Below, piece by piece: positions 1 through 4,526 of a stretch of 11,226 nucleotides of DNA (position 1 is the first letter of the stretch; every line of letters begins with the position of its first letter). Source of the DNA: Oscillospiraceae bacterium (GTDB lineage: Bacteria > Bacillota > Clostridia > Oscillospirales > Acutalibacteraceae); contig WQRM01000013.1 in the NCBI GenBank assembly GCA_009786735.1, positions 1 through 11,226 on the forward strand. The letters are read 5' to 3'. A program made the translations under genes and the position numbers. The notes under the pieces are model-generated. The model ran no database searches. It was not told where the DNA came from and worked only from the letters and a program-made list of their open reading frames with translations.

Positions 1-591
1 TTGCCGTTCGATGTAATCGTCCAGCTTGTAGTCACCCGCGGCACCGCAAGTGTCGTATAAAAACTGCCGCAGCAGCTCGCGCCCGCCCTCGGTGTGCTTG
101 GTTTCGGGATGAAACTGCACGCCAAAGAGCTTCGCTTGTGCGTGCGCACAGGCGGCGATGCAAGCTTGCGTGTGCGCGGTTGCGGTGAAGCCATCCGGCA
201 GGCGCGTGACGCAATCGCGGTGGCTCATCAATGCCAAGAATGACGACTTGGCTGGCTCGGCAGGTGTGACCTTCACGCGGCCATATTCGCCTGCTCCGCC
301 CGGCGAAACCTGCCCGCCCAGCACATGGCACATCAGCTGCATGCCATAGCAAATGCCCAGCACGGGAATACCCAGCCGGAAGATTTCTGCGCTGCAACCG
401 GGCGCGTCGGGTGCATACACGCTGTTGGGTCCGCCGGTGAGAATCAAGCCGATGGGGCGGCGGCGTGCGATTTCCTGCGCCGAAATGTTGCCCGGCACAA
501 TTTCGCTATACACCCCAAGGCTGCGCACCGTGGAGGCGATCAGTTGCTTGTATTGCCCGCCGAAGTCCAGCACCAATACCAATTCGTTCAA
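1..591 (-). CDS. guaA: GMP synthase (glutamine-hydrolysing), N-terminal amidotransferase domain, truncated by window edge
   Basis: GuaA converts XMP, ATP and glutamine to GMP, the last step of the guanine branch. Only the first 197 codons are in the window; families of this kind are about 510-525 residues, so the ATP pyrophosphatase and dimerisation domains lie beyond base 1. The visible part is a class I glutamine amidotransferase: it opens with VLDFGGQYKQLI, has LTGGPNSVY near residue 52, the nucleophile Cys81 in LGICYGMQ, and the His161/Glu163 pair in VQFHPE. No stop interrupts the frame. I chose a TTG start at 591-589 because it overlaps the TGA stop of the upstream carB-dapF gene by four bases, sits behind purine-rich GAGGGAG/GGTGGAG, and leaves the usual short lead before the VLDFGGQ strand; no ATG is available. 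It is the last visible gene of the operon and is probably translated by coupling. Identity is strong, the exact start is less so. Confidence 0.93.
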   Translation of the reverse strand, partial: MNELVLVLDFGGQYKQLIASTVRSLGVYSEIVPGNISAQEIARRRPIGLILTGGPNSVYAPDAPGCSAEIFRLGIPVLGICYGMQLMCHVLGGQVSPGGAGEYGRVKVTPAEPAKSSFLALMSHRDCVTRLPDGFTATAHTQACIAACAHAQAKLFGVQFHPETKHTEGGRELLRQFLYDTCGAAGDYKLDDYIERQ

Positions 592-3500: not shown

Positions 3501-4526
3501 GGTCGTGCCGGTGACGGCGTTCTTGATTTCGTCGAGGGTGTAGCCGATGGCAATCTTGGTGGCAACTTTGGCAATGGGATAGCCCGTGGCTTTGCTCGCC
3601 AGCGCCGATGACCGCGACACCCGCGGGTTGACCTCAATGACGGCGTAGTCAAAGCTGTGCGGGTGCAGAGCCAGCTGCACGTTGCAGCCGCCCTCCACGC
3701 CCAGCGCCTGCACGATGTCTAAGCTGGCGGTGCGCAGCATTTGGTATTCACGGTCGGCGAGCGTCACCGTTGGCGCGATGACGATGCTGTCGCCGGTGTG
3801 CACGCCAACGGGGTCAAAGTTTTCCATGCTGCACACGATGTTGCAGTTGCCCGCGCCGTCGCGCATGACCTCAAACTCCACTTCCTTCCACCCGGCGATG
3901 GATTTCTCAATCAGCACCTGTGTGATGGGCGAAAGCGCCAGCCCGTTTTCTGCAATTTCGCGCAGCTTCGCTTGGTTTTCTGCAATGCCGCCGCCACTGC
4001 CGCCGAGCGTGAACGCCGGACGCACCACCACGGGGTAGCCCAAGTCGTCCGCGATGGCAAGCACGGTGTCGATGTCGTGCGCAATGGCCGACGGCACGCA
4101 GGGCTGGTTGATTTCCTCCATGGTTTCCTTGAAGATCAGCCTGTCCTCGGCGCGGTCAATCGTTTCGGGTGATGACCCCAGCAGCCGCACATTCATCTTG
4201 TCCAGGAATCCCTCTTTGGCCAGCTGCATGCACAGCGTCAGCCCGGTTTGCCCGCCCAAGCCTGAGAGAATGCTGTCGGGGCGTTCTTTCTCGATGATGC
4301 GCTTGATGGTGTTGAGCGTGAGCGGCTCGATGTAGATTTTGTCGGCAATGTTGCTGTCGGTCATGATCGTGGCAGGGTTGGAGTTGACCAGCACGATTTC
4401 GATGCCGTCATCTTTGAGCACGCGGCAGGCCTGTGTGCCGGCGTAGTCAAACTCGGCGGCTTGGCCGATAACAATTGGTCCCGAGCCGATGACGAGAACT
4501 TTCTTAATATCTTTATTCAGCGGCAT
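588..4526 (-). CDS. carB: Carbamoyl-phosphate synthase large subunit fused in frame to diaminopimelate epimerase (CarB-DapF)
   Basis: One uninterrupted 1312-residue frame. Residues 1 to about 1028 are CarB, which uses ammonia from CarA, bicarbonate and two ATP to make carbamoyl phosphate. It starts with the VLVIGSGPIVIGQAAEFDYA signature, has a first ATP-grasp half (FTLGGSGGG near 172, IEVNPRVSRSSALASKATGYP near 297), an oligomerisation region (about 400-510), a second half starting VVLGSGPIRIGQGIEFDYA near 518 with IEVNPRASRTVPYISKVTG near 794, and an MGS-like allosteric domain (about 894-1018). E. coli CarB is 1073 residues; here the last 30 or so residues are replaced by a short linker and then a full DapF (about 1029-1312). 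The ATG at 4526 overlaps the end of carA by 14 bases and follows AAAGGA with nine bases between. I see no stop or good ribosome binding site at the junction, so a bifunctional protein is predicted. The alternative, an assembly error hiding two genes, cannot be excluded from one sequence. Confidence 0.93.
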   Translation of the reverse strand: MPLNKDIKKVLVIGSGPIVIGQAAEFDYAGTQACRVLKDDGIEIVLVNSNPATIMTDSNIADKIYIEPLTLNTIKRIIEKERPDSILSGLGGQTGLTLCMQLAKEGFLDKMNVRLLGSSPETIDRAEDRLIFKETMEEINQPCVPSAIAHDIDTVLAIADDLGYPVVVRPAFTLGGSGGGIAENQAKLREIAENGLALSPITQVLIEKSIAGWKEVEFEVMRDGAGNCNIVCSMENFDPVGVHTGDSIVIAPTVTLADREYQMLRTASLDIVQALGVEGGCNVQLALHPHSFDYAVIEVNPRVSRSSALASKATGYPIAKVATKIAIGYTLDEIKNAVTGTTYAAFEPALDYVAVKFPKWPFDKFVYAQNTLGTQMKATGEVMAIADTFEEALLKAVRGAEIGLQDLHMPKLAHCSDDELRERLNTVTDERLFVLYEALARGYTVDELHLITKVDRWFLHGLVNIKNNTLPQGELIYKMVDTCAAEFEAKTPYFYSIVNGTENEALPFIEKSTKPRVVVLGSGPIRIGQGIEFDYACVHCVWTLRRMGYEVIVINNNPETVSTDFDTADRLYFEPLCINDVMRIIDTEQPVGVIVAFGGGTAIKLTKQLHERGVNIIGTSADSIDMCEDRERFDALLEQLQINRPQGRSVMTEAEALAAAEQLGYPVLLRPSYVLGGQNMIIAHGAQDITEYMAIILRQKQENPVLIDKYLSGLEIEVDALCDGKDVLIPGIMEHIERTGVHSGDSIAVYPALHVDDELAQRLFDITKQLCMALHVRGLVNIQYVLYDGDVYIIEVNPRASRTVPYISKVTGVPMCELATRLSVGEKLADLGYASGIAKLPPYVAVKAPVFSFEKLVGLDTHLGPEMKSTGEVLGIGKNLEEALYKSLAAAGYKMHRGGGVFITVRENDRVEVPDLAEKFAKLGFTLFATRGTARYLTERGFAVTSVEKIHDCADNNTATLLNSGQISYVVSTSEKGRDPALDEVKIRRLACALGIPCLTSIDTAHALADSLRSGYSELNTELVDINNMRSERIKLPFTKMHGCGNDYIYINCFDLEINSPESLAVFMSDRYTGVGSDGVVLILPSDIADAKMRMFNIDGSEGRMCGNAIRCVAKYLYDNGMVQKRRMHIETLSGVKTLELFTRDGLVSAVRVDMDAAHLWPQCIPVALPGERVVAQPVEIDGATYDITCVSMGNPHAVVFTKGVAALNLRHIGPLFEHHPLFPERVNTEFVEVVGKNQLNMRVWERGSGETLACGTGACAAAVAAILNGHCDKNADIIVQLLGGELTIRVTDDTVFMTGNCVKVYEGVVEL
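591..1442 (-). other. dapF: Diaminopimelate epimerase domain (DapF) at the C terminus of the CarB fusion
   Basis: This part of the fusion (about residues 1029-1312, roughly 280 residues, a normal full DapF length) would interconvert LL- and meso-diaminopimelate, the last step before lysine and the peptidoglycan cross-linking residue. It opens FTKMHGCGNDYIYI, as free DapF proteins do near their N terminus. The two catalytic cysteines are present: Cys1106 in GRMCGNAIRC and Cys1255 in GETLACGTGACA. The substrate-binding residues known from DapF structures also have counterparts: Asn1046, Asn1097, Asn1108, Asn1195 in GNPHAV, Asn1228 in VNTEFVE, and Glu1246-Arg1247 in WERGSG. The domain therefore looks active rather than degenerate. 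Met1029 (ATG at 1442-1440) could be an internal start, but the bases before it (GTGGACATCAACAAC) contain no Shine-Dalgarno match, so separate translation seems unlikely. Confidence 0.9.

Follow-up and report, generated by a model that had tools for sequence, protein, structure and literature searches.

A carbamoyl-phosphate synthase large subunit fused to diaminopimelate epimerase, and the loss of catalytic cysteines among its relatives

The carB-dapF gene and its junction

The stretch of DNA analysed here, which we call the window, comprises 11,226 nucleotides of an Oscillospiraceae bacterium (assembly GCA_009786735.1, contig WQRM01000013.1, positions 1 to 11,226). Its subject is a carB-dapF gene in which the large subunit of carbamoyl-phosphate synthase (CarB) continues, in a single uninterrupted frame, into the diaminopimelate (DAP) epimerase DapF (Table 1). 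CarB serves the supply of pyrimidines and arginine, DapF that of the cell wall and lysine. The start of this gene overlaps carA by 14 nucleotides. An earlier, sequence-only reading of the window had proposed the in-frame fusion of a CarB that keeps its two ATP-grasp halves and its MGS domain to a DapF that keeps its two catalytic cysteines; the frame itself and the profile scores of the two halves bear this out.

Table 1. Features of the window
Feature	Coordinates	Strand	Basis and remarks
carB-dapF fusion gene	588..4526	-	1312 residues plus stop; profile matches to both enzymes
CarB part, residues 1-1033	1428..4526	-	two ATP-grasp halves, MGS allosteric domain, native C-terminal tail; profiles and structural alignment
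DapF part, residues 1034-1312 plus stop	588..1427	-	
Junction, residues 1005-1037, CarB C-terminal tail into DapF	1416..1514	-	alignment of fused loci, model confidence (pLDDT)
C1106 codon	1209..1211	-	aligned with H. influenzae DapF Cys73; residue missing in many relatives
C1255 codon	762..764	-	aligned with Cys217; retained in most relatives
carA, glutamine amidotransferase subunit	4513..5568	-	NF009475, 423 bits
guaA (GMP synthase) start, truncated at window edge	1..591	-	TIGR00888 guaA_Nterm, 198.5 bits (cut-off 172)
purF, purA, purB, purC	5565..10414	-	upstream of carA, same direction

Against the CarB profiles TIGR01369 and NF003671 the window protein scores 1388 and 1438 bits (cut-offs 1027 and 599). 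Pfam and NCBIfam models place two CPSase_L_D2 stretches and an MGS domain (residues 915-1000, 63 bits) in the first half. At the level of profiles and of alignment to E. coli CarB (1bxr), this half is a CarB by its score, its ATP-grasp halves, its MGS domain, its complete C-terminus and its neighbouring carA. It differs from E. coli CarB in that its last residue runs straight into a complete DapF. The DapF domain (residues 1038-1310) scores 286 bits against TIGR00652 (cut-off 114.65) and covers positions 3-268 of the 270 in the profile, its full length. It has the two catalytic cysteines, C1106 and C1255; the DapF numbers 73 and 217 with which they align are those given in an excerpt of PMC4227774 (E. 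coli) and in titles of the Protein Data Bank. Like the DapFs 9mro and 1bwz, the domain is full length and has the two catalytic cysteines and the substrate residues; unlike members of TIGR00652, it forms the tail of a CarB, and about half of its examined fused relatives lack a catalytic cysteine. It is not a member of the bifunctional DapF/glutamate racemase family NF038284, against which it scores 115.6 bits, under the 350-bit cut-off.

To describe the junction we aligned an AlphaFold model of window residues 545-1312 (predicted local distance difference test, pLDDT, 84; predicted template modelling score, pTM, 0.82) to solved structures. Model residues 1-489 (window 545-1033) correspond to E. 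coli CarB 590-1072/1073, its extreme C-terminus, and from window residue 1035 onward the model follows DapF from residue 2. In the predicted structure, CarB and DapF are joined end to end without a spacer. The stretch LVDINNMRSERIKLP, which the sequence-only reading had taken for a short linker, is by this structural alignment the native C-terminal tail of CarB, and we reject it as an added flexible linker. Predicted confidence is high here (pLDDT 85-89 at residues 1005-1034), and residues 1014-1040 have no gap in any of 218 aligned fused loci. Three of the 218 loci, all from one genus (L159, L160 and L161), have a 7-residue insertion at the CarB/DapF junction.

Distribution and origin of the fusion

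A protein search with the DapF part, covering candidates of 0.55 to 1.75 times the query length, gave 6714 matches among 7992 scored candidates, and the best 120 of the 6714 carry CPSase domains. Of 297 genomes surveyed in the window's order, at least 110 have a fused match in addition to the window's own genome, a few with frames that end at contig edges. A survey of 398 genomes of the phylum gave 21 matches, of which 19 (the window's included) cross the junction in one frame; 17 of these 19 genomes belong to other classes. The isolate Ruminococcus albus KH2T6 also carries the fusion, and the named carriers include Herbinix, Anaerotaenia, Desulfotomaculum and Ruminococcus next to numerous metagenome-assembled genomes (MAGs) from gut, termites and digesters. 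The architecture thus recurs in independent assemblies, a check that the sequence-only reading had proposed. In 57 of the 61 related loci with more than 1.2 kilobases of upstream sequence, that sequence contains a carA match on the strand of the fusion gene, mostly directly adjacent.

In a CarB tree of 75 rows built by a quick method, all 61 fused rows, including a split fusion from genome G003, are gathered on one side of a branch whose Shimodaira-Hasegawa-like approximate likelihood ratio (SH-aLRT) support is 99. On the same side is a fusion-less gene of genome G026, present twice (L025/L268), which ends at the native tail; this topology therefore fits a single fusion followed by at least one loss of DapF. 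The fused domains also group inside the separate DapFs in a DapF tree of 173 rows (support 88, not starred), and five non-fused rows among them look like later separations. The wide distribution is consistent with a single origin of the fusion, as far as the compared sequences go. Unfused carB and dapF occur as neighbouring or overlapping frames in genomes G009 (L263) and G014 (contig C8, L266). The CarB of G009 is divergent and of a different type, though its DapF clusters with the fused ones. In G003 (contig C73, L026) the fusion is broken by a frame change within the MGS part, which is either a sequencing error or a real break.

Termite-gut MAGs filed as Treponema (L283-L302 and L067-L092) carry the fusion as well, with the first catalytic cysteine nearly always lost. 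They likely acquired it by horizontal transfer; binning errors are also possible.

Catalytic cysteines, routes to meso-DAP and the MGS loop

We sorted the fused relatives by the two positions that hold C1106 and C1255 in the window, hereafter C1 and C2. The 218 loci, which include duplicates and are not a random sample, reduce to 199 distinct sequences: 94 have both cysteines and 105 lack one or both. C1 alone is lost in 92 (59 Ala, 21 Gly, 7 Ser, 5 Phe), and C2 or both cysteines in 13. Among loci outside the 199, six have lost C1 and kept C2 (L201, L208, L218, L227, L229, L240), three have both cysteines (L101, L115, L137), L054 has Gly/Cys and L085 Ser/Cys; L062, without a frame of 600 residues, was left out. 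The sequence-only reading had suggested that the fusion could fix the ratio of the two enzymes or link the supply of wall precursors to that of nucleotides. Because about half of the fused DapFs examined persist despite the loss of a catalytic cysteine, ratio-fixing is not the whole story; a link between the two supplies is possible.

Fitting the cysteine-lost label to the DapF tree takes 15 changes, at least five of them forced by well-supported branches, and fitting it to a CarB tree of 80 genomes takes 6. One DapF-tree clade of 50 rows has Ala at C1 nearly throughout (SH-aLRT 99). The intact class has 74 conserved columns. Among the 92 C1-lost sequences, C1106 is the only one of these columns to be lost entirely; the next-worst, Y1050, is retained in 45% of them. 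We also scored the substrate pocket through ten residues chosen from DapF complexes; nine were conserved enough for scoring. In the C1-lost class these nine are retained at a mean of 97% and the other invariant residues at 94%, with no significant difference between the two (p = 0.31).

The cysteine-lost DapF stays full length and under purifying selection. Pairwise Nei-Gojobori ratios of nonsynonymous to synonymous substitution (dN/dS) for DapF are 0.02-0.16 in cysteine-lost and 0.02-0.23 in intact groups (at most four pairs listed per group), values that are rough because many dS exceed 1. Two groups were saturated and contributed no pair, and two L019 pairs were excluded because their dN was near or above 1 everywhere, even in CarB, a sign of a wrong frame. 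Modelled with AlphaFold, an intact and a C1-lost protein share one layout, each with pTM 0.82 and a confident junction.

Searches with PF01678 show the fused DapF to be the only DapF in 20 of 33 intact-class genomes; a further genome, G046, has no DapF. A second DapF is present in 35 of the 55 genomes whose fusion has lost a cysteine, and Ddh, the other meso-DAP route sought, is present in 18 of the remaining 20. The search for Ddh covered 80 of these 88 genomes (27 intact, 53 cysteine-lost), and weak two-piece matches in G001, G052 and G254 were scored as present. Of the 27 intact genomes, 9 gave neither a second DapF nor Ddh, versus 2 of the 53 cysteine-lost ones (Fisher p = 0.0007), an association that is not significant with phylogeny controlled (5-6 independent pairs). 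The nine intact genomes are 95-100% complete; because no other route to meso-DAP was found in them, they provide good evidence for a working fused DapF. Outside the order, G522 has no DapF other than its intact fused one, and no Ddh was found in it; a separate DapF occurs in all three genomes of f119, where both cysteines are lost, and in all seven of f123, where C1 is lost. In R. albus the intact fused DapF is the only DapF, and Ddh is present. We tried a strict rule by which a cysteine is lost only where another route exists. It holds in 51 of 53 genomes of the order and fails in two, G268 and G029, and it fails again in eight Treponema genomes and in G728; we rejected it, the association being the same one that loses significance under phylogenetic control.

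The Treponema-filed MAGs deserve separate mention. In the genus of one of them, G718, a DapF match is present in 20 of 39 genomes; 19 are readable at the junction and all 19 are fused; C1 is missing from 18 of them, and 3 lack both cysteines. In the remaining 19 genomes of the genus, a search at E 1e-10 gave no DapF match. Retention of the fusion in a genus of which half has no DapF match speaks for a role beyond DAP supply, without proving it. Nine Treponema-named genomes were tested for the pathway: DapB is present, neither Ddh nor another DapF was found, and C1 is lost in eight of the nine. A LysA-like protein under the family cut-off was found in eight of the nine, and in seven of the eight that have lost C1. 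Treponemes use ornithine instead of DAP in their peptidoglycan according to an excerpt of PMC5104382; the termite-gut genomes may or may not share this.

The CarB half also differs between the classes. A YTG-type loop replaces the MGS loop STS.KGR in 49 of the 92 distinct C1-lost sequences and is absent from all 93 intact sequences whose loop can be read. Residues were matched by alignment to E. coli CarB. The equivalents of K954 and K993 are Lys in 4 and 9 of 55 YTG-type loci, versus 171 and 173 of 176, and the Thr977 equivalent is retained in 54 of the 55. We take K954 and the MGS loop to belong to the nucleotide site. For Thr977 and Lys993, an excerpt of PMC6245113 describes a crucial part in inhibition by, and binding of, uridine monophosphate. 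We considered whether the YTG-type class might be an arginine-only synthetase. This is not favoured: the YTG-type protein is the only CarB found in four of six genomes (G016, G021, G027 and G033), a second CarB being present in G014 and G039.

Functions proposed for the fused protein

We suggest that the window protein is a bifunctional carbamoyl-phosphate synthetase and DAP epimerase, whose DapF half is likely also a non-catalytic, DAP-responsive regulatory or structural module; we put the probability of this reading at about 0.55. That the protein catalyses both reactions is very probable. With the adjacent CarA it would form a glutamine-dependent carbamoyl-phosphate synthetase, and the same chain would be a diaminopimelate epimerase. 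We also incline to the view that the DapF half acts on the synthetase. In favour of such a second role we count the retention of cysteine-lost domains under purifying selection, the pocket that is kept where C1 alone is wholly lost, the separate DapFs of f119 and f123, and the YTG-type loops of the C1-lost sequences. The manner is a tentative proposal: binding of DAP would move the DapF domain, and this ligand-driven closure would pull on the C-terminal tail and so reach the synthetase. It is conceivable, and we offer it with equal reserve, that DapF fused to this tail senses the diaminopimelate pool and tunes carbamoyl-phosphate output, the pocket being kept while catalysis was lost in several lineages and the MGS nucleotide site decayed in one large group. 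The cysteine-lost copies would then be sensors or scaffolds, not enzymes. Uridine nucleotides and meso-DAP meet in the peptide of cell-wall uridine diphosphate N-acetylmuramic acid (UDP-MurNAc), and a sensing DapF would match the uridine-nucleotide carriers to the amino acid that they carry into peptidoglycan.

Two known systems bear on this proposal. The E. coli DapF variant C73A/C217A has no epimerase activity, yet it binds and stimulates RppH, as an excerpt of PMC4227774 reports; a non-catalytic role for DapF therefore has a precedent, in which DapF acts on a partner enzyme without its cysteines. RppH is a non-covalent partner, whereas the present case is a covalent fusion to a biosynthetic enzyme, known from sequence alone; here the retention of cysteine-lost domains suggests that DapF may be a cysteine-independent regulator of the synthetase. 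In human CPS1, the C-terminal tail sits in a groove between the phosphorylation domains and controls allosteric activation, and removing the last nine residues causes an abrupt drop in apparent activator affinity and a lower Vmax (PMC4655335, in excerpt). The fusion is attached to the same element, the extreme C-terminus of the synthetase, which governs activation in CPS1; CPS1 stops at its tail, and the window tail continues into DapF.

Several observations weigh against this interpretation. Since retention of the pocket does not exceed that of the other invariant residues, a purely structural role is an equally good fit, and the dN/dS values are rough. The excess of other meso-DAP routes in cysteine-lost genomes is not significant once phylogeny is controlled. 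DapB is present together with only a cysteine-lost fused DapF, and no Ddh, in the eight Treponema genomes, in G268 (C1 lost), in G029 (C2 lost, LysA over its cut-off) and in G728 (both lost, LysA over its cut-off, completeness unknown). In such genomes either meso-DAP is not needed, or the cysteine-lost DapF works, or another enzyme takes its place, or the assemblies have gaps. Finally, the AlphaFold models are single chains without predicted aligned error, and a signal from DapF to the synthetase is something that we infer.

The strongest alternative is that carB and dapF were operon neighbours fused once by chance. The two enzymes would then simply sit side by side, and where another meso-DAP route exists the epimerase would die, its domain being kept for folding or assembly of the synthetase with no sensing of a ligand. 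The adjoining unfused genes in G009 and G014 accord with such a history, and so do the strong purifying selection on both halves and the undistinguished retention of the pocket. A scaffold, however, needs no substrate residues, yet their mean retention in C1-lost sequences is 97%, against 0% for the catalytic base. The confinement of YTG-type MGS loops to the cysteine-lost class is also not what a scaffold would lead one to expect. We regard this explanation as rather unlikely.

It is more doubtful still that the cysteine-lost forms remain enzymes, either as epimerases with one cysteine or as racemases acting on another amino acid, which would make the fusion bifunctional throughout. The eight Treponema genomes, G268, G029 and G728, mostly with LysA or a LysA-like protein besides DapB, are the cases that fit this best, and a racemase that has Thr instead of one Cys is active in a single direction (PMC8142540, in excerpt). 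The substitutes in the fused proteins, however, are mostly Ala or Gly, which are incapable of acting as a base. C2 is missing in 16 of 246 loci, and in most of these both cysteines are gone. Cys-to-Ser mutants of a related histidine racemase lose most of their activity (PMC11602996, in excerpt), and nearly all cysteine-lost genomes of the order have a second DapF or Ddh.

An artefact of assembly or annotation, in which a missed base joins two genes, can be rejected because at least 110 other genomes of the order, besides the isolate, have the junction open and 218 loci align across it without a gap, even though G003 has its carB and dapF frames separated by a frame change in the same fusion and the out-of-frame TGA at 1471-1469 noted by the sequence-only reading is indeed there, as is the internal ATG at 1442-1440 (M1029). 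Of the two objections which that reading had foreseen, separate genes do occur in some relatives, and a sequencing error as the source of the fusion does not hold.

The sequence-only reading had left it undecided whether such fusions are catalogued. They are: UniRef names at least one member 'Multifunctional fusion protein', and other fused members are named merely 'carbamoyl-phosphate synthase large subunit' or 'diaminopimelate epimerase'. The UniRef entry from Herbinix hemicellulosilytica (P0042) resembles the window protein in domains and length, under an automatic name; no functional study of such entries was found in the open-access literature. A search of the open-access literature by title and start of abstract, with subscription journals and preprints outside its scope, found no study of a CarB-DapF fusion and, on DapF pseudoenzymes, nothing on the cysteine-lost fused class. 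If the proposed regulation is true, this physical union of the opening step of pyrimidine synthesis with the final step of meso-DAP synthesis would give gut and rumen bacteria a direct control point between the two supplies. That a single catalytic cysteine was lost repeatedly from an otherwise largely kept domain would be a natural experiment in the passage from enzyme to regulatory domain, and the question is open to testing with the genes of one isolated species, Ruminococcus albus.

The provenance of the window contig affects one further point. Its assembly is 70.6% complete in 227 contigs and contains a second carA-carB start (G000:C109:4155-5384, L281), ended by the contig edge. This carB start is 95-96% identical to those of the genus-mates G001 and G010; among the loci compared, the window CarB over its first 400 residues has only 74-76% identity with genus-mates and up to 86% with other groups. 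By these identities, the window contig may have been binned wrongly or acquired by horizontal transfer. The fusion DapF is the only DapF found in this incomplete assembly; because the contig may not belong to it, we do not build on the window protein's being the only DapF of its genome.

In the remainder of the window, the guaA frame lies directly downstream and begins at the stop codon of the fusion gene. Past purC are a tRNA-Leu(taa) at 10643-10729 and a frame at 10790-11224 with a weak match to a GMP/IMP nucleotidase family (42 bits, under the cut-off). Elsewhere, the gene right after one Treponema fusion gene (L074:9060-12461) encodes a hybrid histidine kinase with a FeFe-hydrogenase-like N-terminal part.

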